Source: Cedecea neteri NBRC 105707 = ATCC 33855 (GTDB lineage: Bacteria > Pseudomonadota > Gammaproteobacteria > Enterobacterales > Enterobacteriaceae). Taken from it: 64,000 nucleotides of DNA. The position numbers and the translations under genes are program-made. The notes below the pieces were generated by a model. The model had not been told where the DNA came from. It made no database searches and saw only the letters and a program-made list of their open reading frames with translations. The stretch spans positions 1 to 64,000 of the forward strand of contig NZ_BCTL01000018.1 of NCBI RefSeq assembly GCF_001571265.1. The letters are read 5' to 3'. Below are positions 31,814-50,519 of this stretch, in pieces (the stretch's first letter is position 1; every line of letters starts with the position of its first letter).

Positions 31814-32323
31814 ATGTCTTCTGAGCACACCCCGGCGCGTATCGCCATTGTTATGGGTTCCAAAAGTGACTGGGCCACCATGCAGTTTGCCGCTGAAATC
31901 CTTACCGCCCTGAATGTCCCTCACCATGTCGAAGTCGTCTCCGCCCACCGCACGCCGGACAAACTGTTCAGCTTTGCCGAGCAGGCCGAAGCCAATGGCT
32001 ACCAGGTGATCATTGCCGGAGCCGGTGGCGCTGCGCACCTGCCGGGTATGCTGGCCGCGAAAACCCTGGTCCCGGTGCTGGGTGTGCCGGTCCAAAGCGC
32101 TGCTCTGAGCGGCGTGGACAGCCTTTATTCTATCGTCCAGATGCCGCGCGGCATTCCGGTCGGCACGCTGGCCATCGGTAAAGCCGGGGCAGCCAACGCC
32201 GCCCTGCTGGCCGCGCAGATCCTGGCCCTGCATGACGCAGACCTGAGCCAGCGCCTGGCGACCTGGCGTCAGACCCAGACCGACGAAGTGCTCGATAATC
32301 CGGATCCACGGAGCGAAGCATGA
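31814..32323 (+). CDS. purE: N5-CAIR mutase PurE
   Basis: 169-residue class I enzyme that converts N5-CAIR to CAIR in purine synthesis. The N-terminal GSKSDWATM binds the nucleotide phosphate and SAHRTPDKL carries the catalytic His. The ATG at 31814 is preferred to an in-frame TTG three codons earlier. It overlaps purK by four bases (ATGA). Confidence 0.97.
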
Positions 32324-33390
32324 AGCGCGTCTGTGTCTTAGGTAACGGCCAGCTGGGGCGCATGCTCCGCCAGGCCGGTGAGCCGCTGGGCATCGCCGTT
32401 TACCCTGTCGGGCTGGACGCCGAGCCGGAAGCCGTGCCGTTCGCTCAAAGCGTGATCACCGCCGAGATTGAGCGCTGGCCGGAAACCGCTCTGACCCGCG
32501 AACTGGCGCGCCACAACGCCTTCGTTAACCGCGATATCTTCCCAATCATCGCCGACCGCCTGACGCAAAAGCAGCTGTTCGATAAGCTCGGCCTGGCCAC
32601 CGCGCCGTGGCAATTGCTTTCCGGCAGCCACGAATGGCAGGCCGTGTTCAGCCAGCTCGGCTCTCTGGCGATTGTGAAGCGCCGCGTCGGCGGGTATGAC
32701 GGCCGGGGCCAGTGGCGCTTGCGTGCCGATGAAACTGACCAGCTGCCGGAAGAGTGCTACGGCGAATGTATCGTCGAGCAGGGCATTAACTTCTCCGGCG
32801 AAGTTTCTCTGGTGGGCGCGCGCGGCCATGACGGCAGCACGGTGTTCTATCCGCTGACCCACAACCTGCATCAGGACGGCATTCTGCGCACCAGCGTTGC
32901 CTTCCCGCAGGCCAATGCCGAACAGCAGCGCCAGGCCGAAACCATGCTCACCGCCATCATGCACGAGCTGGGCTACGTCGGCGTGATGGCGATGGAGTGC
33001 TTCGTCACCCCAGCCGGCCTGCTGATCAACGAGCTGGCTCCGCGCGTGCACAACAGCGGGCACTGGACGCAAAACGGCGCCTCCATCAGCCAGTTCGAGC
33101 TGCACCTGCGCGCCATCGTGGATTTACCGCTGCCGCAGCCTGTGGTGAATGCGCCATCGGTGATGGTGAACCTGATCGGCACCGACCTGAACTATGCCTG
33201 GCTGAAGCTGCCGCTGGTGCACCTGCACTGGTACGACAAAGAGGTTCGTCCGGGCCGCAAAGTCGGTCACCTCAACCTGAATGACAGCGATACCGGCCGC
33301 CTGAGCGCCTCGCTGGAAGCTCTGGTTCCCCTGCTGCCGGTGGAATACGCCAGCGGTATTGCCTGGGCACAGAGCAAGCTGGTGAAGTAA
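32320..33390 (+). CDS. purK: N5-CAIR synthetase PurK
   Basis: 356-residue ATP-grasp enzyme that carboxylates AIR with bicarbonate and ATP to N5-CAIR, the substrate of PurE. Visible: GNGQLGRML at the N-terminus, the ATP-grasp loop [13 protein letters not shown] (about 124-136) and [14 protein letters not shown] (about 237-250). In an operon with purE under the PurR site upstream of purE. Confidence 0.97.
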
Positions 33391-33402
33391 AAGCGCGTCG
33401 CG

Positions 33403-33434
33403 TCTGACCCTCTGTACGACTTTAGAGGGTCAGA
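33403..33434. terminator. Strong hairpin after purK
   Basis: TCTGACCCTCT (33403-33413) pairs perfectly with AGAGGGTCAGA (33424-33434) around ten bases. No T-tract follows; the downstream sequence is pyrimidine-rich (TTTCCCCCTCCCCC). Confidence 0.6.
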
Positions 33435-33517
33435 CCAATTTCCCCCTCCCCCTTTCCTTTGCCCGACCAGAAGCGCACAATCCCCCACGTTACGCCGCTT
33501 CAGACTAAGGTTATGCC

Positions 33518-34615
33518 ATGGAAAAACGCCCTAACGCGCAGGACTACGACCGCCTGCTGCTCAACGACATCCCGCTGATAGACGTTCGCGCCCCGGTAGA
33601 GTTCGCTCAGGGAGCAATGCCCGCTGCCCATAACTTACCGCTGATGCTGGACGATGAACGCGCGCAGGTCGGGACATGCTATAAGCAGCAGGGCCAGCAG
33701 GCAGCCGTCGAACTGGGGCACCGGCTGGTCAGCGGCGAGCGAAAAGCCAGCCGGGTCGAACGCTGGCTGGAGAGCTGCCGCCAGCAGCCTGAAGGCTATT
33801 TATGTTGCGCCCGGGGCGGGATGCGCAGCCACATCGTGCAACAGTGGCTACGGGAAAACGGCCTCGAGTACCCGCTGGTCACCGGCGGCTACAAAGCCCT
33901 GCGCCAGCATGCCATGCAGGTAATCGACACCCGTTCGCAGTGGCCGATGATTATCGTCAGCGGCAACACAGGATGCGGCAAAACCATTCTCATCCGTTCG
34001 CAGCCAACGGGCGTTGACCTTGAAGGCCTGGCGCACCATCGCGGCTCGTCGTTTGGCCGCACGATTGTGGCGCAGCCTTCTCAGGCCAGCTTCGAAAATA
34101 ACCTCGCCGTCACCCTGCTGAAAATCAGCCCGAACGAGCCCAAAACGCTGGTTGTGGAAGATGAAGGCCGGATGATTGGCTCCCGCCATATCCCCGAAGC
34201 CTTCAGAGAACAGATGCTGCGCTCGCGTATTGTGGCGATCGACGATCCGTTCGAACTGCGGCTGGAGCGCCTCAAAAACGAATACTTCGAGCAGATGATC
34301 GAGGCGTTTTTATCCGTCAGCGATGAAGAAACCGCCTGGCGCGATTACGCCGAGTACCTGCACCACGGCCTGTTTGCCATCCGCCGCCGTCTGGGCATGG
34401 AACGCTTCCAGCAGTTCACCACCAGGCTGGACGAGGCGCTGCTCACCCAGCGGAAAACCGGCTCCTGCGAAGGCCATCTGGCCTGGCTGTCGCCGCTGCT
34501 GAAAGAGTATTACGACCCGATGTACCGCTATCAGCTCAGCCAGAAGGCCGACCAGATTGTCTTCCGGGGAGATTACCAGCAGGTCGAGTCCTGGCTGCGC
34601 AGCATTAACGGTTAG
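33518..34615 (+). CDS. selU: tRNA 2-selenouridine synthase SelU
   Basis: 365-residue enzyme that turns 2-thiouridine at the tRNA wobble position into geranylthio- and then selenouridine using selenophosphate. The N-terminal rhodanese domain has [10 protein letters not shown] (catalytic Cys about 96-97), followed by a P-loop GNTGCGKT (about 149-156) and GSRHIP. The last 11 bases overlap the end of the convergent MFS gene. In E. coli selU also borders the variable allantoin/rhs region. Confidence 0.95.
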
Positions 34616-35810
34616 CCGATTTATCCCCTGCCGAGAGCGCCAGCCCCAACCCGGTTACCGCCAGCAAGACCAGAGGAATGCCCACCGCCCACGGCAGCGT
34701 AAACGAAAGCGCGAACAGTGCCGTGCCGGTAGCCGGCCCCACCGATCCCTGCAAATCGCTCACCACCGAAAGCGCGGCCATATAGGTCGCGCGTAACCGC
34801 GCCGGGGCTAACTTGTTCACCGCCGTCGGGATCAGCGGGCCGGTCATCATCTGGGACAGCGAATAGAGGCAGACTGCCATCACCAGCGTCACGACGTGAG
34901 GATAAGCCAGCAGCAAAACAAAGGCGGTGATAAGCGAGGAGCCTGCGCTGAGGGTGATAAACAACGGCGAACGTCGGGCAAACAGCTTTGTTAAGGCGAG
35001 CTGACCAATCGTGTTAATCCCCGCCCCGAACGCGAACAGATAACCGATACTGGCCGCGCTCATCCCCATCTGATTGCTGGCATACAGCGGCATGACGGCC
35101 TCCACCCAGCTCCCGGCCACGCCCAGCAGCAGCACCCACATTAGCAGCACGGCCAGGCGACTATCCCGGAACGCGGGCAACAGCGCGCTAAACCCTTCTT
35201 CGCCGTCCTCATCTTCCACATCAGCGGCTAACGAACGTGTTTCCGACAGGCAAATCGCCAGCATCAGACCGCCCGCAACCAGCACCGAACCTCCGGCCAG
35301 AAAAACGTAGCCCAGCCCCTCTTGCACCAGCACCGTGCCCAGCAGTGGCCCGGCAATGGCGCCCGCGCCGGAACACACGCGCATAATGCTGAACTGGCGG
35401 CGGTGCTCCGCAGCTGGCGTGGAGTCGGCCACAATGGTGTAAATGGTCGGATGCAGCACCGACTCAAACAGGCCAATAACGATCAGCACTGCAGCAGCAG
35501 CAAAGACGCCGTGCGCAAAGAACAGCGCGATAAAGCCCGCCCCGACGCCGGTCGCCGAAATAATCAAAACGGGCCTTCTGCCCACGCGATCGGCAATGCC
35601 GCCGATAAACGGCGCGGCCAGCAGTTCGCCCCCGGCATAGCAGCCGAACAGCAGGCCAATAAACTCCACCGGGATAGCGGCAGACTGCTGCGCCCACAGA
35701 GGGAAAAACGGGACAATGGCGCCGTCGACCAGGCCAACGATGAAATAGAGGATAAAGCCCAGAACGTGGGGCTTGCGGTACGAAACAAGGGGGGATGCGA
35801 ATAGTGCCAT
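34605..35810 (-). CDS. MFS transporter, DHA1/Tet-like efflux type
   Basis: 401-residue major facilitator with 12 predicted membrane segments and the motif A sequence [11 protein letters not shown] between TM2 and TM3. An acidic cytoplasmic linker VEDEDGEEG near the middle joins the halves. It looks like a drug/H+ antiporter of the Tet/multidrug type; substrate unknown. The ATG at 35810 (MALFASPLV) is preferred to an upstream TTG. The 3' end overlaps selU by 11 bp tail to tail. No regulator is adjacent. Confidence 0.8.
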
Positions 35811-36392
35811 GATGTTACCCAAGTACAATTACCCCGAATGCCGGGGAGAATATGTACGTTGGATAACGTTAACGTTTACGACTTGCGAGAAGCTGGAGCG
35901 ATACTAGCCAATCGCCGGGTAAAGGGCAACTGTGAGATTTGGGGGCTGGTGGTGGGTGGGGGATTTGGGTAGTTTTGAGTTTGGGGGTTATTGCTAAAGG
36001 GCTGGCACTAAAAAAGCATTTACTTGTAGATAGATTTTTTGTCTGCTTAGTGCCAAAAGCAGACCTCTCAGAACTATTGAATTTAGTGCAATGGTGAAGA
36101 ATAAGTGCCGCTTAGCTTACTGGTTATACATATTGGGATACCTTGGCATGGACATCAGAGAGCCATGGATTTACCATCAAAGACGGTTCGTTATAAACAT
36201 GATCTCTATACAGATTTAACTAAAATCAATTGTCGCTTTTTGCTCAGTTCTTTACTCCTTGAGGATTAATTTCCATAAAGTGCGATCATTAGCATACTGC
36301 TAGGCTAGCAGTATCTAAACGGGCGGATTATAGTGTTATTTTTTTTGTAACCACTTCTGGAATTTAGCGTTTTAAAACTTAAAGAGGTTAAA
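35811..36392. other. Left flank of the accessory islet, non-coding
   Basis: About 580 bp without a gene, turning from GC-rich to AT-rich. In order: the palindrome AACGTTAACGTT (35865-35876) in the MFS promoter region, a G-run tract (35941-35987), a 9-bp inverted repeat TGGCACTAA/TTAGTGCCA (36003-36011 and 36047-36055), and a perfect 10+1+10 palindrome (36294-36314) before the nuclease gene. No reading frame or tRNA remnant is recognised. Confidence 0.55.
36294..36334 (+). promoter_or_regulatory. Palindromic operator candidate and promoter of the nuclease-herA pair
   Basis: ATACTGCTAG (36294-36303), one G, then CTAGCAGTAT (36305-36314) is a perfect inverted repeat. A -10 TATAGT lies at 36329-36334, so the repeat covers the -35 region, the usual place for an operator. 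AAAGAGG precedes the ATG at 36393. The cognate regulator is not obvious in the window. Confidence 0.5.
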
Positions 36393-37571
36393 ATGGGGCG
36401 TTCAGCCGACTACACTATCCAAGGTTTTTTATATCAATTTAATCTAACACTCGCTGAGCTACTCAAGGCTGCGGATGAGGCAGAAATTACTATCGAAGGG
36501 ATTGTCGAAGATATAGAAGTCGCTACATTTACCGGAACCAAGGCCATTCAATGTAAATATCACGAAACACAGGAAAAATATACTCCCAGCATTCTGTATG
36601 ACCCGCTGCTTCAGATGATGAAGCATTTTAAGTCAAATCCCAATGCAAAAATAAGTTATCACCTTTTTGCTCATTTTCCGAATACATCTTTAATAACTAT
36701 TTCTTCTGCGGATTTGAAGAGCGCCCTTACTTCTAAAAATAAAGATTTACAGCATTTGATAGCAGAGGCTATAGATGTTGATATTAATCAATTCCTTAAG
36801 GTATTTGATATAAAAGTAACGCCAAAGTATGACGATTTGATGGAGGAGAATGTAAAACTGCTTGTCGATCTAGGCTTTAACAAGAGTGAAGTGGAAATAT
36901 TATTCTATCCCAACGCCATTCAGATCATTGGTGATCTTAGTATTAAGCATGACGAAAATCTTAGGAAAATCACCAAGAGTTTTTTCCTGGAAAAATTACG
37001 CCGAATCAGATCTACCGCAGTTTCTCAATGGACTCTTGCTTTAAAAACACGTCATAAGATTTTAGAGGCACGACGTAAACAATTAAAAGAGAACCTGAAT
37101 GCAAATGTTCGTTTGCGATTTATACTTATTTTTCCTGCTCTTCTAGAGGAGTTTGATAGCCAAATCGTTCTCTTTATAAAATCTTTTGTTGATAAGTATC
37201 ATTTTAAACAGATACATACTCACACTCCAATTTTTATATTGAATGTTTCTCAAGAAATATTTGATGGTATTGCAGATAGACTAGTTGGCAAGGATGTAAT
37301 TCCAAATCTTGGGCGACCAGTAAATAATTTCTCAGGGAAGCATTTTTTCCGTGATCCGATTGTTACCAAGGATAAAAAAGAGTTTGTCTTACGCTTCATC
37401 CGTTGGGATGACTATAAAAGTCTTTTTGTCGAAACTAAGGCGGACGATTTATTTGTAATTGGCAACGGAGATATTTCTAGTTTAGACCTACAGGATGTAA
37501 ATCTTGAAATTTTAGGCGCTGAAAAAATTGATGAAATAAAATATATGCTGGGGATGACTAATGCTTATTAA
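36393..37571 (+). CDS. DUF4297/Cap4-like PD-(D/E)xK nuclease, HerA partner
   Basis: 392-residue protein. The N-terminal 60 residues follow the DUF4297/Cap4 nuclease pattern: GFLYQF with Gln15, Glu35, Asp40 in EDIEV, and the QxK form of the PD-(D/E)xK motif, Gln53-Cys-Lys55, then YHE. Residues about 120-250 are helical and charged; the C-terminal part (about 250-390) is unrecognised. The last 11 bp overlap the herA start, so the two are co-translated. Such nuclease-HerA pairs are known as anti-phage systems forming a joint complex. No CD-NTase or SAVED domain is present, arguing against CBASS. Base composition is clearly more AT-rich than the core genes. Confidence 0.7.
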   Translation: MGRSADYTIQGFLYQFNLTLAELLKAADEAEITIEGIVEDIEVATFTGTKAIQCKYHETQEKYTPSILYDPLLQMMKHFKSNPNAKISYHLFAHFPNTSLITISSADLKSALTSKNKDLQHLIAEAIDVDINQFLKVFDIKVTPKYDDLMEENVKLLVDLGFNKSEVEILFYPNAIQIIGDLSIKHDENLRKITKSFFLEKLRRIRSTAVSQWTLALKTRHKILEARRKQLKENLNANVRLRFILIFPALLEEFDSQIVLFIKSFVDKYHFKQIHTHTPIFILNVSQEIFDGIADRLVGKDVIPNLGRPVNNFSGKHFFRDPIVTKDKKEFVLRFIRWDDYKSLFVETKADDLFVIGNGDISSLDLQDVNLEILGAEKIDEIKYMLGMTNAY

Positions 37572-39327
37572 AATTGGAACAGTGCTTTCATGTGCGCCAG
37601 AGGCTGTTGTAGTTGCTGTTGATAACCTTGAAGTTTTTGAGAAGAATAAAGAAAATCTTCAAGTTGGCCGTTTTCTTAAGATTGCCCAGGGAAACCTTGA
37701 CTTTACTATCGTTACCATCAGAAACATCAAAGGTACAAATACAACCACACCTGACGGAAAACCGATCTGGAACTTCCAAATTGAATGTCAAGCTATAGGA
37801 ACTTTAGTTGATGGCAAAAGTTTTGACCGTAGCAGCCTTCTTTTACCGGTTCCAACTGAACATGCATTCATTGCGGAAAATGATACCTTAGACAAGATAT
37901 TCACGGCTGATGGCGATCATGACTTCCCTCTTGGAAAACTTTCGATGAATAAATCTATTGATCTTATGATCAGTGGCAATAGATTCTTCAGTAAGCATAT
38001 TGCGGTTGTGGGATCTACTGGTTCCGGTAAGTCGTGCACCGTTGCTAGTGTGTTACAGGGTATTGTGGGAATATCTCAACGTAAAAACAGCAACAAGAAG
38101 ATGCAAAATAACTCGCATGTGGTGATATTTGATATTCATGATGAATATACTGCGGCATTTACTTTACAGGCTGAAGAGTCTTTCACTCTGAGTCGATTAG
38201 ATATTGACTCCCTGCAGCTCCCATACTGGCTGATGAACTCTGAAGAACTCGAAAGTATGTTTATCGAAAGTAACGAAGCGAACTCTCATAATCAAGTTAG
38301 CCAGTTCAAGTATGCTGTTGTGCTTAATAAGGAAAAACATAACCCTGCGGTTCCGGAAGTGACTTATGACACCCCTGTGTATTTCTCGATCACAGAGGTT
38401 TACAACTTCATTGAAAATATGAATAGGGAGGTCATTGGTCGGCTATCTGGAGAGGATAAACCAAAGTTAGCTAATGGAGATCTAGTCTCTGATCGGAGTA
38501 TTTATTTCGAAAAAGCACACGATTTTGTTGCTACCTCGAGTGCAGCTGCATCCAAGGCTACTAATGGACCTTTCAATGGGGAGTTCAATAGGTTTGTTTC
38601 GCGGTTGGAAACAAAATTAACTGATAAACGTCTTCGGTTTCTTTTGAATACTAAGAAAGCTGATGGCAAGAAACATTTGACTGAGGACTTCGAGACGCTA
38701 ATGAAGCAATTTATTGGCTATCTCCAAAAATCTAACGTCACTATTGTCGACTTAAGCGGAGTTCCGTTCGAAGTTCTTAGCGTAACTGTAAGCTTGATTT
38801 CTCGCCTAATTTTTGATTTTTGCTTTCATTATTCTAAATTGCAGCATGCGCTTGGTAAACTCAATGATATTCCTGTTATGTTGGTGTGTGAGGAGGCGCA
38901 CAACTATGTACCTCGAGATAATCATGCTTCATATCGAGCATCTCGGAAGTCCATCGAACGCATAGCAAAGGAGGGCAGGAAATATGGCCTAAGTCTGATG
39001 GTAGTAAGTCAGCGTCCTTCAGAAGTATCGGAAACAATATTTGCTCAGTGTAACAATTTCATTTCTCTGCGTCTTACAAACGATGCCGATCAGTCATACG
39101 TGCGACGACTATTTCCAGATAATGCCAACGCGATTACGGAAATCTTACCTAATCTAGCCCCCGGAGAATGCGTAGTAGTTGGTGATGCCGTGTTGCTGCC
39201 AGCGGTGATAAAAATGCCACTACCTTCCCCAGAACCACATTCCCAGAGCGTAAAAGTGCATAGTGAATGGAATGCAGCATGGCGTGACATTGTCTTCGAG
39301 AAGGTTATTGAACGTTGGAGAAAATAA
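37561..39327 (+). CDS. HerA-type FtsK/HerA-superfamily ATPase (predicted defence helicase)
   Basis: 588-residue DUF87/HerA ATPase. A beta-barrel HAS-like N-terminal domain (about 1-100) precedes the RecA-like core. Walker A is GSTGSGKSC (151-159), Walker B LVCEEAH with Glu444-Glu445, and the sensor segment VVSQRPSEV follows. HerA proteins form hexameric rings that translocate on DNA; with a DUF4297 nuclease they restrict phages. The start ATG lies inside the preceding gene (11-bp overlap). A hairpin follows at 39376. AT-rich like its partner, so both were probably acquired together. Confidence 0.88.
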   Translation: MLIKIGTVLSCAPEAVVVAVDNLEVFEKNKENLQVGRFLKIAQGNLDFTIVTIRNIKGTNTTTPDGKPIWNFQIECQAIGTLVDGKSFDRSSLLLPVPTEHAFIAENDTLDKIFTADGDHDFPLGKLSMNKSIDLMISGNRFFSKHIAVVGSTGSGKSCTVASVLQGIVGISQRKNSNKKMQNNSHVVIFDIHDEYTAAFTLQAEESFTLSRLDIDSLQLPYWLMNSEELESMFIESNEANSHNQVSQFKYAVVLNKEKHNPAVPEVTYDTPVYFSITEVYNFIENMNREVIGRLSGEDKPKLANGDLVSDRSIYFEKAHDFVATSSAAASKATNGPFNGEFNRFVSRLETKLTDKRLRFLLNTKKADGKKHLTEDFETLMKQFIGYLQKSNVTIVDLSGVPFEVLSVTVSLISRLIFDFCFHYSKLQHALGKLNDIPVMLVCEEAHNYVPRDNHASYRASRKSIERIAKEGRKYGLSLMVVSQRPSEVSETIFAQCNNFISLRLTNDADQSYVRRLFPDNANAITEILPNLAPGECVVVGDAVLLPAVIKMPLPSPEPHSQSVKVHSEWNAAWRDIVFEKVIERWRK

Positions 39328-39375
39328 AATGAGTTATTACTGATAGCTAGGTTTAATAGTTAAAAATATAAATGA

Positions 39376-39397
39376 ATGGCCGCTGCATTGCGGCCAT
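39376..39397. terminator. Bidirectional terminator between herA and the 60-aa gene
   Basis: ATGGCCGC (39376-39383) pairs with GCGGCCAT (39390-39397). Read on the minus strand it is followed by TCATTTATATTTTT, a usable T-rich tract, 11 bp beyond the small gene's stop. Confidence 0.7.
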
Positions 39398-39408
39398 ATC
39401 TACTACAT

Positions 39409-39591
39409 CTAGATATCATCAGGTAGTTCACGAATAGCCTTGCGTATATTAGTCTCAGCATTATCTAACTCTTTTACAGCGCGTGATATATCTGAGCGAC
39501 CATCTTCTACTTTTGAACGAGCTCGTCGTAATGTGGATATAGCATCATCGATAGCACTCAATGCTCGCTTTAATCTTCTTTTCGTATCCAA
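39409..39591 (-). CDS. Small uncharacterised coiled-coil protein
   Basis: 60 residues, highly charged, no Cys, Trp or aromatic residues, no signal or membrane segment. Ala/Leu/Ile recur with heptad-like spacing (AISTLRRARSKV, AVKELDNAETNIRKAI), so a single long helix or helical hairpin is likely. AAAGG lies 5 bp before the ATG and a terminator follows. It is convergent with herA in the same AT-rich islet. I do not recognise the family; it might be a regulator or an accessory of the neighbouring system, but nothing in the sequence proves this. Confidence 0.55.
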   Translation of the reverse strand: MDTKRRLKRALSAIDDAISTLRRARSKVEDGRSDISRAVKELDNAETNIRKAIRELPDDI

Positions 39592-39782
39592 CCTTTAAAT
39601 CCTCTTATAAGTAAATAATGATTTATAGACTCGTATGTAAAACACGGCATTCGGCGATTAAGTATCGACTGCGTTAGATCAATCTACCGCAAGTGTATCG
39701 AATCCGTTTCTCGCTCACGGTAGACACTTTAAAATCAAACCACCCCTCCCCCTCTGGGGGAAGGCACCACCCAACCAAAACA
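39592..39782. other. Right flank of the accessory islet
   Basis: AT-rich DNA changes back to GC-rich. The only structure is CCCCC-TCT-GGGGG at 39748-39760 which, read on the minus strand and followed by a T-rich stretch, may end the next gene. No integrase or att-like repeat was found. Confidence 0.45.
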
Positions 39783-40316
39783 TCAATGAACCAAATTCAA
39801 AGCCCCGCCCTGAATCATCCCTAAATCACCGTCCAGTGAGCGAACAAACCTCGGGGCTTTTAAATCTTCGGTCAGCACTACGATCAGATCATACAGCAGC
39901 CCGGTCATCTGCTGACTTTGCTCCGGGGATTCTTGCTGGTTCAGCAGGACGATAGTTAACGCCGCGCAGTATTCGCGCAGCGGTTCGGAGTCGGTGGCTA
40001 GCGGGTTATAGCAGATGCGGGCTTCGCTCTCTTTGAGCGTCAACTTCTCTATCAGGTAGTCCGGCAGCGGGGCTTTGAGCACGCTTTTCAGGACTTCCAG
40101 CCCGGCGAGCAGGCGACCGCAGAGCGCCATGCGTTCCGTTTGATTTTGGTTTTCAAGCAAATGCTCTGCATACTGCTCGCAGATATCCAGCACCTGGAAG
40201 AGATCCATCGCTGCGCCCTGCGGCTTTTCTAGCAGGGTTGCGATATCGCCCGCAAATGCCGGGTCGTGTGGGGTGATTTCAGGGCGAGCCTGTGTGTTAC
40301 TATCAGCGTTAGCCAT
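39783..40316 (-). CDS. Hypothetical protein, mostly helical, with structured leader
   Basis: 177 residues from the ATG at 40316, which has GAGG nine bases upstream; that GAGG lies inside an alternative ATG (40331) that would add five residues. Predicted all-alpha and soluble, with no catalytic motif I can name; blocks such as AMDLFQVLDICEQYAEHLLENQNQ are amphipathic helices. The composition is like the core genome, unlike the islet at 36-39.7 kb. I do not recognise the family. The hairpin-rich leader resembles those before genes in P4-like satellites, but no phage gene is adjacent. Confidence 0.6.
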   Translation of the reverse strand: MANADSNTQARPEITPHDPAFAGDIATLLEKPQGAAMDLFQVLDICEQYAEHLLENQNQTERMALCGRLLAGLEVLKSVLKAPLPDYLIEKLTLKESEARICYNPLATDSEPLREYCAALTIVLLNQQESPEQSQQMTGLLYDLIVVLTEDLKAPRFVRSLDGDLGMIQGGALNLVH

Positions 40317-40336
40317 AGCGTTAGTCCTCATAACGT

Positions 40337-40404
40337 TGGTGGTTAGCCCTCGTCTGGTGTCTCACCACCATTCGGGGGCGCTTCTTTTTCCGGCTTTGGC
40401 CGGG
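40337..40404 (-). promoter_or_regulatory. Hairpin-rich leader of the 177-aa gene
   Basis: TGGTGGT (40337-40343) pairs with ACCACCA (40364-40370), enclosing a competing inner stem GGTG/CACC (40356-40366). Further upstream CCGGC-TTTG-GCCGG (about 40391-40404) forms another hairpin. The two could be alternative structures controlling translation or premature termination. Confidence 0.4.
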
Positions 40405-40556
40405 TTTATTTCTTGCTCATCCCTCCGATCATACTGGATGGTTGCACAGTAACCCAGATGAAAAACCAGGCAGATTGGCAAACTTCGAGGCGGCTCGCAG
40501 GAAATGATGAAACGCTTGGGGGAATTGCAGATTGGGGGCTTATCAGGAAGAAAACA

Positions 40557-40576
40557 GGCCGAACAAACGTCCGGCC
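40557..40576 (-). terminator. Terminator after metI-type gene
   Basis: On the minus strand GGCCG (40576-40572) pairs with CGGCC (40561-40557), followed by TGTTTTCTT. It lies 10 bp after the stop of the permease gene. Confidence 0.75.
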
Positions 40577-40586
40577 AGAAAGAAGG

Positions 40587-41246
40587 TTAATGCCTGTCGC
40601 GTTTATCCGCGCGTTTGGCGAGATAGTCGCCAAACATTTGCACGATTTGCACCAGCACAATCAGCGCCACGACCGTGACCACCATGACCTGGGTTTCGTA
40701 GCGGTAATAGCCGAAGCGGATCGCGAGGTCGCCCACGCCGCCGCCGCCAACAATCCCCGCCATCGCCGAGTAACCGATCAGGCTGACCAGGGTTATGGTT
40801 AACCCGCGCAGCAAACCGGCGCTGGCTTCCGGCAGCAGCACGGTGCAGATGATGCGCATCGGGCTGGCGCCAAAGGCTTCCGCGGCTTCAATAATGCCTT
40901 TATCCACTTCCCGCAGCGCGCCGTCCACCAGGCGGGCATAAAACGCAATTGCCGCCACCGACAGCGGCACGGAAGCCGCAATCGGCCCGATGGTGTTGCC
41001 GAGCAGGAACTGCGTCAGCGGCAACAACAGCACCAGCAGAATGACGAACGGCACCGAGCGCACGATGTTCACCAGTACCGAACTGATGATGTTCAACGAG
41101 CGGTTCTGCCAGAACAGATTGCGGTCGGTGACGAAGATCAAAAAGCCCAGCGGCAGGCCGCCGATGATCGCCAGCAGCGTGGAAATGCCCAGCATCTGGA
41201 AGGTTTCGCCAAAGGCAATCGTCAGGTCCGCGACTAAATCATCCAT
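40587..41246 (-). CDS. MetI-type ABC permease
   Basis: 219-residue inner-membrane permease of the methionine-uptake family with about five transmembrane helices and the EAA-type loop EAAEAFGASPMRIICTVLLPEA. It overlaps the ATPase gene by 8 bp and is the last of a binding protein-ATPase-permease operon. E. coli metNIQ has the order N-I-Q and is located elsewhere, so this is probably a paralogous set. The substrate is not certain to be methionine. Confidence 0.87.
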   Translation of the reverse strand: MDDLVADLTIAFGETFQMLGISTLLAIIGGLPLGFLIFVTDRNLFWQNRSLNIISSVLVNIVRSVPFVILLVLLLPLTQFLLGNTIGPIAASVPLSVAAIAFYARLVDGALREVDKGIIEAAEAFGASPMRIICTVLLPEASAGLLRGLTITLVSLIGYSAMAGIVGGGGVGDLAIRFGYYRYETQVMVVTVVALIVLVQIVQMFGDYLAKRADKRDRH

Positions 41247-42255
41247 TCAGCACCTCCACACAGGCCGTATGTTTCCGAATATGGTCGATGGCATCCCCCA
41301 CCGCCGCCGGGTTGCCGGGCGCGGTGATCGCCACCACCAGAATGCCCAGCGCCCGGTCGCTGATATACTCGATTTTGCCGTGCAGAATGTTCACGCCGAC
41401 CCCAAACTTCACCGCCGCGAAGGAGAGCACCGGCTGTTCGGCCGAGTCGCCGACGAACATGATTTTCAGCAGCGCGCCGCGCATGTTGTCCAGCAGGCGC
41501 ACCGGCAGCGTCAGATTCAGCGTGTGGGACACCAACTGGCGGGTAAATTCATGCTGCGGATGCGCGAAGATGTCGAACACCTCGCCGGATTCCACCACTT
41601 CGCCGCCGGACATCACCGCCACGCGGTCGCAAATCGTTTTGATCACGTTCATCTCATGAGTGATCAGCACGATGGTGATCCCCAGCTGCTGGTTGATCTT
41701 TTTCAGCAGCGCCAGAATGGTGGCGGACGTTTCCAGATCCAGCGCCGAAGTCGGTTCATCACAGAGCAAAACATCCGGATGGTTCGCGATGGCGCGCGCA
41801 ATGCCCACGCGCTGTTTCTGCCCGCCGCTCAGCTGCACCGGGTAGCGGTTGGCTTTGTCGGCCAGGCCCACCAGCTCAAGAATTTCATCCACGCGCGGGC
41901 CGATTTTACTGCGTTCCCAGCCTGCAGCTTTGAGGCTGAACGCCACGTTCTGCCTGACCGTCCGGGTGTGCATCAAATTGAAGTGCTGGAAAATCATGCC
42001 GATGCGCTGACGCGCTTTGCGCAGCTCGGCCCCCTGCAGCGCGGTGATCTCGGTCCCACCGATTTTTACGCGACCCTCACTTGGGCGCTGGAGCGCGTTC
42101 AGGGTACGCAATAAGGTACTTTTCCCGGCTCCGCTGGTGCCGACAATGCCAAAAATCTCCCCCGCGCCAATGTGCAGCGAAACATCGTTCACCGCCCGGC
42201 TGGTCTGGCTCCGGCCCGAGGGGAAGTCCACGCAGACCTTTTCAATCTCAATCAT
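41239..42255 (-). CDS. MetN-type ABC ATPase with NIL domain
   Basis: 338-residue ATP-binding subunit. Walker A GTSGAGKS (39-46), signature LSGGQKQR (about 142), Walker B VLLCDEPTSALD. The C-terminal part (about 260-338) has the NIL domain that in MetN binds substrate and inhibits transport, so feedback control by the imported compound is likely. Located between the binding-protein and permease genes. Confidence 0.92.
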   Translation of the reverse strand: MIEIEKVCVDFPSGRSQTSRAVNDVSLHIGAGEIFGIVGTSGAGKSTLLRTLNALQRPSEGRVKIGGTEITALQGAELRKARQRIGMIFQHFNLMHTRTVRQNVAFSLKAAGWERSKIGPRVDEILELVGLADKANRYPVQLSGGQKQRVGIARAIANHPDVLLCDEPTSALDLETSATILALLKKINQQLGITIVLITHEMNVIKTICDRVAVMSGGEVVESGEVFDIFAHPQHEFTRQLVSHTLNLTLPVRLLDNMRGALLKIMFVGDSAEQPVLSFAAVKFGVGVNILHGKIEYISDRALGILVVAITAPGNPAAVGDAIDHIRKHTACVEVLNG

Positions 42256-42278
42256 GACAACCTCAAATCAGCGATAAA

Positions 42279-42299
42279 GAGCAGGCATCCCGCCTGCTC
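42279..42299 (-). terminator. Intercistronic hairpin between binding protein and ATPase
   Basis: GAGCAGGC (42279-42286) and GCCTGCTC (42292-42299) form a perfect stem with a five-base loop, followed on the minus strand by TTTATC. It would stabilise the binding-protein mRNA or reduce read-through, giving more binding protein than ATPase. Confidence 0.65.
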
Positions 42300-42310
42300 G
42301 ATTTGCTCTA

Positions 42311-43147
42311 TTACTTTTTATCTGCGGCAACCATCCAGTCAGGTTTCTGGAAGGCGTTGAAAATATTCTGCGGATCGTCGATCGCTTTTTCGTAGGCCGG
42401 TGACTTCACTGTCTCGACGATGTCTTTGGCAAACGGTTTATCCGCATCTTCGGCACGCACCGCGATGATGTTTTTGAGGTTCTCGTCCAGGTGTTCCTGT
42501 TTGAGCGCGGAAGAGAGTTTTAGCCCGGCGGCAATGGCAAAGTTACCGTTGACCAATGCGGCGCTGGCGCTGTCCAGCGTGCGCGGCAGCTGTGCGGCTT
42601 CCAGCGATTTAAACACCAGCCCTTTCGGGTTGGTGGCGATGTCGCGCTCGGAGGCCTTGGTCGGGTCAATGTTGTCTTTGATGGTGATAAGCTCCATCGA
42701 CTGCAGGAAGCGCAGCCCACGGGCCAGGTTGGTCGGGTCGTTAGACAGGGTGACAATGTCGCCTTTCTTCAGTTCGTCCAGGCTTTTGACTTTATGGGAA
42801 TAAATACCCATCCCGGCGGTTGGCACGGTGATCAGCTTCGCCAGCTTGAGGTTTTTGTCGGCGGTGAATTTGTCGAAGTACAGCGAGTGCTGGAACAGGT
42901 TGGCGTCGATGCTGCCGTTCGCCAGCGCCATGTTGGGCTGCACGTAGTCGCTGAACTCGCGCACCACGACTTTATAGCCTTTCTCTTTTAACGACGGGGC
43001 GATGGCCTGTTTGACCATGTCGCCGTAAGGCCCCGGCGCCACGCCGAAGACGATGGTGTGCGGGTCGCTGTTGGCCTGAGCAAACTGCAGGCCGCTGGCC
43101 AGAAGTAAAGCGCCGGTCGCCACGCGCCAGCCGAAACGATTTCCCAT
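42311..43147 (-). CDS. MetQ/NlpA-family substrate-binding protein, non-lipidated
   Basis: 278-residue periplasmic binding protein of the NlpA/MetQ family (IVFGVAPGPYGDMVKQ, FSDYVQPNMALANGSIDANLFQH, LSNDPTNLARGLRFLQ). Unlike E. coli MetQ and NlpA it has no lipobox Cys; the signal ends GLQFAQA-NS, a type I site, so it should be soluble in the periplasm. First gene of the operon. The upstream 110 bp show no tandem MetJ boxes (AGACGTCT), so control by methionine through MetJ is not supported. Confidence 0.88.
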   Translation of the reverse strand: MGNRFGWRVATGALLLASGLQFAQANSDPHTIVFGVAPGPYGDMVKQAIAPSLKEKGYKVVVREFSDYVQPNMALANGSIDANLFQHSLYFDKFTADKNLKLAKLITVPTAGMGIYSHKVKSLDELKKGDIVTLSNDPTNLARGLRFLQSMELITIKDNIDPTKASERDIATNPKGLVFKSLEAAQLPRTLDSASAALVNGNFAIAAGLKLSSALKQEHLDENLKNIIAVRAEDADKPFAKDIVETVKSPAYEKAIDDPQNIFNAFQKPDWMVAADKK

Positions 43148-43376
43148 GGGTATTCTCCCTTACAGAATGATGTGTGGTGTCCTGAGGCGAGCCTCTTTCA
43201 CGGGCCGATTACTAAGTCGTTGATCCAACTGGACAGAGTAAGATGGCACATTCCGCTAGCAGGGGTAATTGAAAATATTTCATCTTGCGCGCGGGAGAAG
43301 GCGCGGCAGGCATAAAGCGGGCTTTTGCGAATAACAAAAAAGCAAAGCGGAAAACCCGCTTTGCTTTAGAGTGAGC
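43148..43376. terminator. MFS terminator and binding-protein upstream region
   Basis: On the minus strand AAAGCAAAGCGG (43367-43356) pairs with CCGCTTTGCTTT (43350-43339), followed by TTGTTATT: a strong terminator for the MFS gene. The remaining 190 bp hold the promoter of the metQ-type operon; no clear -35/-10 pair stands out. Confidence 0.8.
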
Positions 43377-44855
43377 TTAATCAGCGCAGGATGCCGCCCG
43401 TTTGCGCTTAACGTATGTTTTGACGTTGAACAGCAAATAACTCGCCAGCGACAAACAGCCCACGCCCGCTGCGCCGTAGGCCAGAACGCCTGAAAAACCG
43501 TCATTCAGCGCCTGAATAATAATGTCGCTGCTGAGCGTGGCTCTGGTGCCGCCAGCGATTTGTTCTGCCAGGGCATATCTTTCGCTCACGCTGTCGATAT
43601 GGCTCTGTAAACTTTCGGCTATCCCCGCCACCAGCAGGCTCCCCATTAAGGCAATATTGATGGCGAGGGTAATTAAGCGCGAACTGATATCAATCCCGGA
43701 AGCCATGCCCACGCGGTTAGCGGCGACGGAACTCGTGGTGGTGTTGGTGACCGGGGTATTGATTAACCCCAGCGCCATCCCCGAAAGTATTGCGCCGGGT
43801 AGCAAACTGACCTGATAGATGACGGCCAGTCTCATCAGGACAAATCCCAGGCCGATAGTCAGCAGCCCCAGCGGGATGAGGCGCGCGGCACCAAAACGCA
43901 GCACAAGCTTCTCACCGACCGGCGGCATTAACAATGTGGGCAGGGTGTAGGCCAGCAGCGCCATACCAGTCTCCATAATGCTGTAGCCCTTCCCTATCTG
44001 GTAATAAACCGGCAGATAAATCATCAGCGGCCAGAAGCTGAAATTCATCCCCACGGACCCCATCAGCGCGCCGGAGAAAGGTCTGATCCGAAAGACAGAG
44101 AAATCAAACATAGGATGCGGGTGGCGTAGCTCAATGATGACGAACAGCCCCAGGCTAATAAACGTACCCAGCAAGGTTAACTGGGCTTCACGGCTGGTCC
44201 ACCCGATGTTCCCGCCCTGAGTGATGAGCCAGGTCGCCCCCACCACTCCTATGCTCAACGTCACCAGGCCCGCAACATCCAGCGGTTTCGTGGTGTTTTC
44301 CCGCGACTCGATAACATTTTTCAGGGTCAGAGCCAGGGTGAGCAGCGCAATAAAACCGTGGATCAGAAATACCCATTGCCAGCTAAACCACGCCTCCAGC
44401 ACGCCGCCGATGACGGGGCCAAAGCCCAGCCCAAAACCAAATGTGATCCCCCAGGCGGAAAATGCCCTGCTGCGCGCTTTTCCCGCTGGAAACTGAACCG
44501 ACAGGATGGCAATCAGGCTGGTTAACATCGCCCCGCCGCTCAGTCCCTGCAAAAAGCGCCCCACAATAAGCCATTCCGGCGTCCGGGCCAGGCCACAGAG
44601 AACCGACGTCAGGCCAAACCCAATAATGCTGATAATAAAAATACGCTTGCGGCCATATTTATCCGCCAGTGTTCCCGTGGCCATCAGTACCGCCGTACAG
44701 GAGAGGGTATAAGCGTTCATAATCCACTGCAGTTCACGGAAATTGGCCTGCATCTGCTTTTCCAGCACCGGCAAAATAACCGGGACGCTGGATATTTCCA
44801 GGCCCGACATTAACGCGGCCAAACAGACCGCCATCAGCGCTAATAGGTTTTTCAT
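43377..44855 (-). CDS. MFS transporter, DHA2 (14-TM, EmrB/QacA-like)
   Basis: 492-residue exporter with 14 predicted membrane segments, motif A GTLADKYGRKR (about 68-78) and the antiporter motif C region WGITFGFGLGFGPVIGG. It is probably a drug or small-molecule/H+ antiporter, substrate unknown. The ATG at 44855 (MKNLLALMAV) has AGGAAATCAGT upstream; 29 earlier in-frame codons are excluded. Divergent from a GlxA-type regulator that likely controls it. Confidence 0.85.
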   Translation of the reverse strand: MKNLLALMAVCLAALMSGLEISSVPVILPVLEKQMQANFRELQWIMNAYTLSCTAVLMATGTLADKYGRKRIFIISIIGFGLTSVLCGLARTPEWLIVGRFLQGLSGGAMLTSLIAILSVQFPAGKARSRAFSAWGITFGFGLGFGPVIGGVLEAWFSWQWVFLIHGFIALLTLALTLKNVIESRENTTKPLDVAGLVTLSIGVVGATWLITQGGNIGWTSREAQLTLLGTFISLGLFVIIELRHPHPMFDFSVFRIRPFSGALMGSVGMNFSFWPLMIYLPVYYQIGKGYSIMETGMALLAYTLPTLLMPPVGEKLVLRFGAARLIPLGLLTIGLGFVLMRLAVIYQVSLLPGAILSGMALGLINTPVTNTTTSSVAANRVGMASGIDISSRLITLAINIALMGSLLVAGIAESLQSHIDSVSERYALAEQIAGGTRATLSSDIIIQALNDGFSGVLAYGAAGVGCLSLASYLLFNVKTYVKRKRAASCAD

Positions 44856-45029
44856 ACTGATTTCCTGCAAAACGTTAAGAAGGTGCCAGCATGAAAGATT
44901 CGGGGTGGAGTAGAAATCGACGCCCAGGTCAGTTATCGTCAAGATCGTGCCATTTTAGAGACAGAACGACCATGCCAGTCACCTATTCAGATCAAGACCG
45001 CGCTTAGAGCGAAAAATCGACGGCTGGTT
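44856..45029. promoter_or_regulatory. Divergent promoter region MFS / GlxA-type regulator
   Basis: 174 bp. Read toward the MFS gene, ATGGCACGATCTTGACGAT (44940-44954 region on the plus strand reversed) resembles targets typical of GlxA/FtrA-type AraC regulators (TGGCACG plus TTGAC). This is inference from memory, not a matched profile. Confidence 0.35.
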
Positions 45030-47421: not shown

Positions 47422-49836
47422 TCAGACGACAAACTGGCGGAAAAGCGCCTTCCCTTTCAGCAGGCGAACGCCCAGCCAGCCGCCGCAAAGTGACAGCAAT
47501 ACCGCCCCGGTAACAGGCAGCACGATCCACAGGCGCCAATCAGGCTCCCACGGGAAGTCGAACACCCGCGTTTGCAGCACGCCAAGCGCCGTTTCGGCCC
47601 CGATGGCCGCCACCAGGCCGGACACCAGCCCCAGCACGGCAAACTCGCACCACAGCGTGGTTCTGAGCAGCTTTTTGCCCGCGCCCAGCGTGCGGTAAAC
47701 CACCAGTTCCTGATGGCGCTGGCGCATGCCAACCTGCACCTGAGCCAAAAGCAACAGCAGGCCGCAGGCGGTCACCAGCACCACCATCACCTCCAGCGCG
47801 CGGCTGACCTGTTCCAGCACCTGGCCGATTTGTTTCAGGATAGCCCCGATATCCAACAGGCTGACGGTTGGGAATTCACGGTTAAGCTGGGTCAGCAGGC
47901 CGTTACTTCCCTCCCAGCGGAAGCTGGTGAGCCAGCTCTGCGGCTGCCCGTCCAGCGCACCCGGCGGGAAAATGAAGTAGAAGTTTGGCCGCAGGCTTTC
48001 CCAGTCCACTTTGCGCAGGCTGGTCACCTTCGCGGTGAAGTCCTGGGTATCCCCCATAAAGGTTACGCTGTCGCCGAGTTTAATGTTCAGCCGCTTCGCC
48101 ACCCCGTCGTCCATCGACACTTCCCTGGCCTTCGGCGGCCAGCTGCCCGCCAGGATAGGGTTATGATCCGGCTTCTGGCTCTGCCAGGTCAGATTCAGCT
48201 CGCGGTTCAGCGCCTCGTCCGGGTTGCCCTCGGTGGACTGGCCGTTAATCGCCGTCATGCGCGCCCGCACAATGGGATAGAACGAATCCGGGATCACCTG
48301 ATGGTCGGCGAGGAAAGTTTTCACCGGCTGAACCTGCTCCGGCGCAATGTTTACCAGGAAGTAATTCGGGCTTTCCGGCGGCAACTGCTGCTGCCATCTG
48401 TCCAGTAAATCGCCCCGCAGCACTAACAGCAGCGCCAGCAGCATAAACGACAGCGAGAATGCCGCCAGCTGGCTAAGCGTCGCCCACGGCTGGCGCAGCA
48501 GGCGATTAACCGCCAGGCGCAGCGCCAGATTTTTCAACGTGAGCTTCTTAAGCAGTTTAAGTACGCCCCAGCCGACGAGGCCGCACAGCGCCGCCAGCAC
48601 CAGCGTGCCCGCCAGCACTGCCCACAGCAGCGCACTGCCGCCCATGAGCAACGCCAGCAGCAGCACCACTACGACGCTTATCACCGGCAGATAAATTTTC
48701 AGCGGCCAGACGCTGGCCACGGCGTCACGGCGCAGCACGCGCAATGGCTGAGTCGCCAGCAGCAGCCGGTACGGACGCAGCCCCACCAGCACGGAGATCG
48801 TTACCATCGCGCCGATAGCCCACACCCACGGCCAGAGGCTCGCAGGCGGCAACGCGGCAGGCAGCACCGGCTTCAACAGCTGCATCAACGCGGCCTCGAA
48901 CAGCAGCCCTACCGCGCCCCCGGCAATCGCCGAGAGCAACAGCACCATCAGCCACTGGCCGATAATCAACTTACGCAGCGCCGCCCTGCCCGCCCCCAGC
49001 GTTTTCAGAATAGCCACCAGGTCGTAGCGGCTGCGGCAGTAGTGGCTCATCGCCACGGCAATCGCCGCCACGGCCAGCAACAGCGTCAGCAGGGCGGAAA
49101 GCAGCAGGAACTGCTGAGAACGCTCCAGCGACTTGCCCAGCGCGCCTTCGTCCTGCTCCATGCCGATCCAGCGCTGCTCCGGCTTCAGCTTCGGCAGCAG
49201 AAAGTTTTCAAACTGCAGCAGCTGCTGCGGGTTGCCGCCAAACTTATAGCGCCAGCTAATGCGGCTGCCGGGCTGCACCGCGCCGGTTTTCTCGACGTCA
49301 GCCAGGTTCATCATCAGCCGGGGCGCAATCTGGAACGGGTTAAACCCGGCGTCCGGCTCCTGAATTACCTGCCCGACAATACGCAGCGTGGCATCGCCCA
49401 CGTCTATGTTATCGCCCACTTTCAGGTTGAGCAGAGCCAGCAGGCGCGGCGCAAGCAGCGCGGTACCCGGCTCAGGCTTCAGGCCTGGCGGGTTAGTTTC
49501 CAGCTCGCCGTACATCGGGTAAACACTGTCGACCGCTTTCACATCCGCCAGCTGCGGCGTGTCTCCGGCAAAAGTCATGGTGGCGAAGCTCAGCTGTTTG
49601 CCGACCTTTAAGCCATCGCTTTGTGCCTGAGTCAGCCATTCATCCGGCACGGCGCGGGCGCTGCGCAATGTTCTGTCGCCCGCCATATACTCGCGGCTTT
49701 GCTGGCTGAGGCCTTTTTCCATTCTGTCGCTGATGCTGCCGAGCGCCAGCACGCAGGCCACCGCCAGGCTAAGCGCCAGCCAGACAATCAGCAGCGAGGG
49801 AGAGCGCCACTCGCGCCAGAACCAGCGGGCTATCAT
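47422..49836 (-). CDS. ybbP: YbbP, FtsX-like ABC transporter permease
   Basis: 804-residue inner-membrane protein with N-terminal TM, a large periplasmic domain, paired FtsX-type TM blocks in the middle (about 255-430) and at the C-terminus (about 680-790). It is the permease partner of YbbA and is thought to move lipids or lipid-derived molecules; the true substrate is unknown. The ATG at 49836 (MIARWFWREWRSPSLL) overlaps the ybbA stop as ATGA and matches E. coli; four earlier codons are excluded. Confidence 0.94.
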   Translation of the reverse strand: MIARWFWREWRSPSLLIVWLALSLAVACVLALGSISDRMEKGLSQQSREYMAGDRTLRSARAVPDEWLTQAQSDGLKVGKQLSFATMTFAGDTPQLADVKAVDSVYPMYGELETNPPGLKPEPGTALLAPRLLALLNLKVGDNIDVGDATLRIVGQVIQEPDAGFNPFQIAPRLMMNLADVEKTGAVQPGSRISWRYKFGGNPQQLLQFENFLLPKLKPEQRWIGMEQDEGALGKSLERSQQFLLLSALLTLLLAVAAIAVAMSHYCRSRYDLVAILKTLGAGRAALRKLIIGQWLMVLLLSAIAGGAVGLLFEAALMQLLKPVLPAALPPASLWPWVWAIGAMVTISVLVGLRPYRLLLATQPLRVLRRDAVASVWPLKIYLPVISVVVVLLLALLMGGSALLWAVLAGTLVLAALCGLVGWGVLKLLKKLTLKNLALRLAVNRLLRQPWATLSQLAAFSLSFMLLALLLVLRGDLLDRWQQQLPPESPNYFLVNIAPEQVQPVKTFLADHQVIPDSFYPIVRARMTAINGQSTEGNPDEALNRELNLTWQSQKPDHNPILAGSWPPKAREVSMDDGVAKRLNIKLGDSVTFMGDTQDFTAKVTSLRKVDWESLRPNFYFIFPPGALDGQPQSWLTSFRWEGSNGLLTQLNREFPTVSLLDIGAILKQIGQVLEQVSRALEVMVVLVTACGLLLLLAQVQVGMRQRHQELVVYRTLGAGKKLLRTTLWCEFAVLGLVSGLVAAIGAETALGVLQTRVFDFPWEPDWRLWIVLPVTGAVLLSLCGGWLGVRLLKGKALFRQFVV

Positions 49837-50519
49837 GCTTCCTCCCACAGTTTGCCTTCACGCAGCCGCAGGCGGCGGTCGCAGCGTGCCGCCAGCTGCT
49901 CGTCGTGAGTAACGAGGATCAGCGTGGTGGAGAAATCACGGTTGAGGGAAAACAGCAGGTCGGCGATGCGGTCGCCGGTTTGCCTGTCGAGGTTGCCGGT
50001 TGGCTCATCGGCAAACAGCACGCCCGGTTTGCCGTTAAACGCCCGAGCCAGCGCCACGCGCTGCTGTTCCCCACCGGAGAGCTGTGCTGGCAGGTGATCC
50101 AGGCGTTTGCCTAAGCCCAACTGCTCCAGCAGCGCTTTGGCCTGCGCGCGGCTGGCCGAGCTGTTTTCACCGCGCAGCAGCGAGGGAAGCTCTACGTTTT
50201 CGAGGGCATTCAGGGTAGGCACCAGCATAAAGGACTGAAACACAAAGCCGACGTTCTTTGCGCGCAGCGCCGCCCTCGCCTCTTCATCCATGTTGTGCAG
50301 CGGCTGCCCGCAAAGGTGGACCTCGCCGTCCGTGCCGTCATCAAGCCCGGCCAGAATCGCCAGCAGCGTGGACTTGCCCGAGCCTGACTCGCCAATCAGG
50401 GCGATGGTTTCGGCCGGTTTGACAACCAGCTCAACTCCGGTAAGGATGGAAAGCTCGTGTTCACCCTGACCCACGGACTTACTAAGATGATGAACTTCAA
50501 CAATGTTTTCCGCTGGCAT
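49833..50519 (-). CDS. ybbA: YbbA, ABC transporter ATPase
   Basis: 228-residue LolD/MacB-like ATPase. Walker A GESGSGKST, signature LSGGEQQRVALARAF, Walker B VLFADEPTGNLD, H-loop THD. Works with YbbP. Its 5' end overlaps the divergent tesA start by 33 bp, so each gene's ribosome binding region lies in the other's coding sequence, as in E. coli. Confidence 0.95.
   Translation of the reverse strand: MPAENIVEVHHLSKSVGQGEHELSILTGVELVVKPAETIALIGESGSGKSTLLAILAGLDDGTDGEVHLCGQPLHNMDEEARAALRAKNVGFVFQSFMLVPTLNALENVELPSLLRGENSSASRAQAKALLEQLGLGKRLDHLPAQLSGGEQQRVALARAFNGKPGVLFADEPTGNLDRQTGDRIADLLFSLNRDFSTTLILVTHDEQLAARCDRRLRLREGKLWEEA

Follow-up and report, generated by a model that had tools for sequence, protein, structure and literature searches.

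The 64,000-nucleotide stretch of Cedecea neteri NBRC 105707 analyzed here (contig NZ_BCTL01000018.1, positions 1 to 64,000; called the window below) carries a pair of adjacent genes that very probably constitutes a complete DUF4297-HerA two-gene anti-phage system, as predicted from the sequence. A preliminary description of this DNA, made from its letters and open reading frames (ORFs), had proposed a cassette of a DUF4297/Cap4-type nuclease and a HerA ATPase directed against phages, and model matches, solved structures in the PDB, active-site residues and gene order all support that proposal. The pair itself is ordinary but real, and the main interest lies in the site that it occupies and in the unnamed cargo found there in related genomes.

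Results

Both genes begin with ATG, have intact frames and overlap by 11 bp as described (Table 1). The G+C content is 0.355 for the nuclease gene and 0.413 for the HerA gene versus 0.618 (32320-35828) and 0.567 (39783-44942) in the flanks, which bears out the claimed A+T richness, and the AT-rich islet holds no further ORF of at least 80 amino acids (aa). Judged by sequence comparison, the pair is not a chance match, since the DUF4297 and HerA matches have E-values from 9e-44 to 1.2e-230 and the gene order is kept in 85 of 86 related loci.

A profile search of the nuclease, called for in advance, returned DUF4297 from PADLOC (9e-44), NCBIfam and the PDB, and no NurA, SIR2 or HamA. The second PADLOC match was LmuA (8.6e-7), with no others, and no Pfam family was found up to E = 1. 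The PDB matches were 9c1m_A (2.2e-70, in two pieces), 8ziq_A (5.8e-68, residues 1-390) and 8xav_G (1.7e-17, residues 1-246). The active-site residues that had been named, Gln15, Glu35, Asp40, Gln53 and Lys55, are all present at those positions. The C-terminal part of the protein had been called unfamiliar and the pair possibly a divergent subtype. The protein is indeed far from the Escherichia coli type (25% identity), but its C-terminal part is, by alignment, a known assembly domain, because residues 1-390 align with the solved chain 8ziq. The alignments with 9c1m and 8ziq run through residue 389-390, and a profile built from 29 relatives could be aligned to the E. coli protein over window residues 2-348 with 99.7% probability. 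In PMC11291478, this domain is described as a sheet of four strands between six helices, which links the DUF4297 subunits to one another and docks on HerA.

The HerA protein matches DUF87 in Pfam (6.1e-30) and HerA in PADLOC (1.6e-169), and in the PDB it matches 9c1m_M (1.2e-230), 8ziq_M (6.5e-218) and 8xau_A (7.3e-132). The claim of a complete HerA held up: the frame is intact, residues 151-159 read GSTGSGKSC and include the Walker A lysine K157, and the two glutamates stand at 444 and 445. The window HerA also has counterparts of R455/K456, for which an arginine finger role is described in PMC11291478. With regard to a possible C-terminal hook, its last residues align with those of E. coli HerA, and W586 is present in 72 of 85 aligned rows (11 gaps).

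Relatives were collected by scanning an 84,980-species collection, which gave 264 candidate stretches and 134 confirmed relatives. The best 80 of these, five plasmid loci (L003 and L006-L009) and one sister-species genome (L010) make up the 86 loci. HerA lies 3' of the nuclease on the same strand in 85 of them, and the remaining one (L079) is at a contig end. Of the 86 nuclease rows, 85 have Y14, Q15, E35, D40, Q53, C54 and K55; the exception is L113, which lacks the stretch in the frame used. K157 is present in 84 of 85 HerA rows, with a gap in the last. Pairwise distances of nuclease and HerA are strongly correlated (r = 0.899; Mantel test on 73 rows including the window, 14 of 87 being dropped as incomplete or without a partner), and none of 999 permutations gave a value as high. 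Compared with the sister-species copy, nonsynonymous divergence (dN) is 0.126 for the nuclease and 0.088 for HerA, while synonymous divergence (dS) is saturated at 2.5 and 2.2, so that dN/dS is rough; the low dN relative to dS nevertheless points to purifying selection on both genes.

Some observations weigh against a straightforward assignment. Both proteins fall under the NCBIfam cut-offs for the anti-phage models, the nuclease with 179 bits against the 300 demanded by NF042945 (1.3e-52) and HerA with 617 bits against the 850 demanded by NF042944 (4.4e-185). As a control on these cut-offs, the solved Agrobacterium tumefaciens plasmid pAt pair was below both (145 and 589 bits, the nuclease being given without its first five residues) and the E. 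coli H1 pair above both (466 and 885 bits). The DNA-contacting R284 and K287 of E. coli HerA correspond to K300 and L303 in the window protein, with a hydrophobic residue at 303 in most rows, so this contact is not kept as such. A promoter scan of the islet was at chance level (13 found, 10.6 expected). Finally, three relatives (L107, L113 and L115) have a short or broken nuclease frame, which speaks against a uniformly working family. Of these, only L107 also has a short HerA, the other two having it at full length; all three were retained in the counts. At several loci a contig end truncates the HerA frame.

The DUF4297-HerA pair is rare and patchy. It was found in 2 of the 59 genomes of the relatives search (the window's own and one sister species), and a sample of 369 genomes from the class gave, at E-values up to 1e-20, a single positive, again its own. 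Matches occurred in 18 of 72,556 plasmid records, 11 of which cover at least 80% of the query, and a search of 50,697 phage records with the nuclease gave no match. A maximum-likelihood tree of 85 rows places the window nuclease in one group with the copies of the sister species (G005), Tatumella and a Pantoea plasmid (support 100/99), and this group then joins two Pseudomonas copies (100/99). The G005 nuclease is nearer to the Tatumella/Pantoea pair than to the window nuclease (100/88), and the DNA of the two genes is 75% and 78% identical between window and G005 while that of selU is 94% identical. The two copies therefore probably arrived separately at the same site.

Other explanations of the pair have to be set against these data. 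HerA is common to repair systems, and the window protein also matches the repair-HerA models NF040937 (3e-36) and NF040819 (8e-35). Together with the Mre11- or Rad50-like neighbor seen at 5 of the 86 loci, this would suit a pair that processes DNA ends in repair, of the archaeal NurA-HerA kind, and has no part in defense. Yet the anti-phage HerA model is matched far more strongly, the partner is a DUF4297 match without any hit to a NurA model in Pfam, and the patchy presence described above is unlike that of a housekeeping repair gene, which makes a repair role extremely improbable. We also find it hard to believe that the pair is a silent passenger of a variable slot, unused by its host: both frames are intact, the catalytic residues are kept and dN is low relative to dS, even though the same site holds an integrase-like ORF and unrelated genes in G007 and no promoter stands out in the islet.

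It is very unlikely, although somewhat easier to imagine, that plasmids or other mobile DNA, and not phages, are the main target of the pair. Relatives do occur on the plasmid records counted above, one of them amid conjugation genes, but carriage on plasmids is also common among anti-phage systems. The published nuclease is promiscuous for double-stranded DNA, while the system to which it belongs protects against lambda, both according to An et al. (PMC11291478).

Known systems with related components were considered as well. NurA-HerA, SIR2-HerA and Hachiman (HamA) were rejected because the partner has no Pfam family up to the limit used and only DUF4297 and LmuA in PADLOC. Lamassu is defined by a nuclease beside the SMC-like LmuB; here the neighbor is HerA, PADLOC gave no LmuB match, and the islet offers no other ORF of the size searched.

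The preliminary description had placed the DUF4297-HerA pair between selU and ybbP, an interval said to vary among enterics. This is only loosely true, as the nearest neighbors are an MFS transporter gene and a 182-aa ORF. The rhodanese-like protein gene that we take to be selU lies one gene further left, and the permease ORF that is presumably ybbP lies about 8 kb to the right. Across eight genomes of the genus, including that of the window, the site is variable and carries different defense cargo by species, a new but modest observation. All eight have selU followed by the MFS gene, and the sequences then diverge beyond 35943-36066. In the window's genome and in G002 and G004-G007, the common sequence resumes at 39735-39782; in G001 and G003, it resumes at 40362, and the interval holds just one ORF, of 247 to 254 aa.

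The cargo in G005 is a DUF4297-HerA pair with a 534-aa ORF, and G002 has a DRT2 reverse transcriptase (PADLOC, 4e-205). G004 carries a Tmn-like YobI ATPase (2.8e-72, the match covering its N-terminal third) together with a PDC-S51/DUF3800 protein (8.3e-76). In G006 there are an ion-channel/pentapeptide protein, a 291-aa ORF and a 458-aa putAbiC-like protein (20.3 bits, cut-off 22), and in G007 an integrase-like ORF, a GNAT protein and a 308-aa ORF. The slot ORF of G003 (L126), the sole gene scanned from G001 and G003 and scanned with Pfam alone, had no match. Recognized defense genes thus occupy the slot in four of the eight genomes, and the scans made found none in the other four; the PADLOC scan covered ten cargo ORFs and left out the integrase-like ORF and small ORFs.

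The 534-aa ORF of G005 (L010, 7631-9235, plus strand) lies directly behind HerA. Searches of Pfam, PADLOC, NCBIfam and PHROGs with its protein gave nothing at the limits used, and the protein is absent among the neighbor-cluster families listed, which were at most the 15 largest; one weak plasmid match is annotated as vWA domain-containing.

Genes for an Mre11-like protein (calcineurin-type phosphoesterase) and/or a Rad50-like ATPase adjoin the pair at L006, L009, L054, L104 and L120. At L006 and L009 they line up with the pair on the same strand, at L054 they face it, and at L104 only the Rad50-like gene was seen; some of the Rad50-like matches fall under the Pfam cut-offs. A recombinase-like family (6 of the 86 loci) and an N-6 methylase family (5 of 86) are about equally frequent neighbors, so we claim no special link. 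Among the literature matches listed, titles and abstract openings held nothing on HerA with Mre11 in phage defense.

On the right side of the islet, a 60-aa ORF (39409-39591, minus strand), searched without its start codon, has relatives of about 49 to 53% identity on 15 plasmid records, most of 4 to 9 kb and mainly from Klebsiella. Three E. coli genomes have DNA that is 80 to 82% identical to the region around it, in one case beside a recombinase gene. We rejected this ORF as a third gene of the system and treat it as separate cargo, because it is absent from the DNA aligned with G005 (which stops at 39329 and resumes at 39744) and its relatives are on mostly small plasmids. Each of the eight genus genomes has one to seven matches to the family of the 182-aa flanking ORF, which makes 30 places, some of them fragments. 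The ORF had no match in NCBIfam, none above the cut-off in Pfam and one very weak match in PHROGs, and a different ORF occupies its place in G001 and G003. Repeats in the islet were just short two-copy matches of 73 to 93% identity, and the intergenic DNA upstream of the pair had no E. coli match.

Table 1. Features of the DUF4297-HerA pair and its surroundings (positions in the window)
Feature	Positions	Strand	Remarks
selU (rhodanese-like protein)	33518-34615		One gene further left than the MFS gene; name assumed
MFS transporter gene	34605-35828	-	Immediate left neighbor
Variable slot	35945-39782		Approximate borders: left 35943-36066, right 39735-39782; compared with seven other genus genomes
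DUF4297 (Cap4-like PD-(D/E)xK) nuclease, 392 aa, predicted	36393-37571	+	PADLOC, NCBIfam and PDB matches
Active-site stretch E35, D40, Q53, K55	36495-36557	+	Residues checked
C-terminal assembly domain, about residues 245-392	37125-37568	+	Boundary approximate; alignment with 8ziq_A and 9c1m_A reaches the end
Overlap of nuclease and HerA genes	37561-37571	+	11 bp; same 11 bp in the 11 closest relatives (L003, L010, L046-L054)
HerA ATPase/translocase, 588 aa, predicted	37561-39327	+	DUF87, PADLOC HerA, PDB 9c1m_M
HerA Walker A, residues 151-158 with K157	38011-38034	+	Residue check
HerA E444/E445	38890-38895	+	Aligned with E. coli HerA E426/E427
HerA R473/K474	38977-38982	+	Aligned with published arginine finger R455/K456
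Terminator-like hairpin 3' of HerA	39376-39397	-	Consensus scan only: 5 found, 2.3 expected
182-aa ORF	39783-40331	-	Immediate right neighbor
ybbP-like permease ORF	47422-49848	-	About 8 kb right of the pair; name assumed
Slot loci besides the window			L010, L031-L034, L126, L127

Discussion

With the window pair, a defense system that has been solved and tested gains a well-preserved member, in a branch that is missed by the curated cut-offs of NCBI, and as a result such genes tend to be labeled hypothetical. The best reading is that of a nuclease-translocase for double-stranded DNA that would act by abortive infection; we infer its stoichiometry, its abortive mode and its activity in this host by homology. 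Following PMC11291478 and the review PMC12198126, twelve DUF4297 subunits in two layers, linked by their C-terminal domains, would sit atop a HerA hexamer, a stoichiometry taken from homology. ATP hydrolysis by HerA would drive double-stranded DNA through the ring toward paired N-terminal PD-(D/E)xK nuclease domains, which would cut it without sequence preference, the nuclease alone being expected to be nearly silent. Upon infection, DNA would be destroyed and the infected cell lost, and phage spread would stop. The specific trigger of DUF4297-HerA is described as unclear (PMC12198126). For the system of An et al., nuclease, ATPase and plaque data are published, active-site mutations abolish the protection against lambda, and the mutants in the growth curves are D40A/Q53A/K55A and K157A (PMC11291478).

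The site is the more useful by-product of this work, with the same left flank, differing cargo in eight genomes and three kinds of recognized defense genes. The unnamed slot ORFs are fair candidates for a defense function, and the lineages that have DUF4297-HerA beside an Mre11/Rad50-like pair are of interest for a possible cooperation. Archaea have a HerA-NurA-Mre11-Rad50 set, and such a combination, if true, would be its bacterial defense counterpart. A bolder proposal would take all of this together: that the slot by selU and the MFS gene is a genus-wide defense hotspot with at least two gains of DUF4297-HerA, that the unnamed 534-aa (G005), 308-aa (G007) and 458-aa (G006) cargo are unrecognized defense genes and that DUF4297-HerA joined an Mre11-Rad50-like pair in some lineages. 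We put this forward as a speculation that is unlikely to hold as a whole. Titles and abstract openings among the literature matches listed contained nothing on DUF4297 with a hotspot.

The closest copies of the pair are those of the sister species G005, Tatumella morbirosei, a Pantoea plasmid and Pseudomonas donghuensis, with nuclease identities of 76 to 79% and HerA identities of 86 to 91% and the same gene overlap. The Pantoea copy differs in being plasmid-borne amid conjugation genes, and the same genomic site as that of the window pair is demonstrated for the G005 copy only.

Among characterized systems, the E. coli type (8xav/8xau; NF042945/NF042944) has the same active-site residues at the same numbers, and its HerA shares 246 of 556 aligned residues with the window HerA. 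Over residues 1-394, the E. coli H1 protein matches the solved chain 8xav (5.6e-264), and the residue numbering of An et al. fits this E. coli type. The window pair differs from it in the distant nuclease, in scoring under both equivalog cut-offs and in the replacement of R284/K287. Nearer is the DUF4297-HerA system of A. tumefaciens pAt (8ziq/8zir/8zit; the 8ziq nuclease chain is the pAt protein over the 392 residues compared), which has the same two genes in the same order and a nuclease that is 36% identical, aligned over residues 1-390, while its gene overlap is 8 bp, its HerA has 617 aa and its location is a plasmid. The best solved match for both window proteins is the complex of a DUF4297 domain protein and an ATPase in 9c1m, 9c1n, 9c1x and 9c5x, which we take to be, probably, the system of Rish et al. 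2025. Its nuclease differs in its length of 436 aa and in a stretch that stays unaligned between the two aligned segments. Since the window pair scores under the NCBIfam cut-offs but so does the 8ziq-type pair, these comparisons place it outside the E. coli equivalog and within the wider solved family, in a second, already solved branch.

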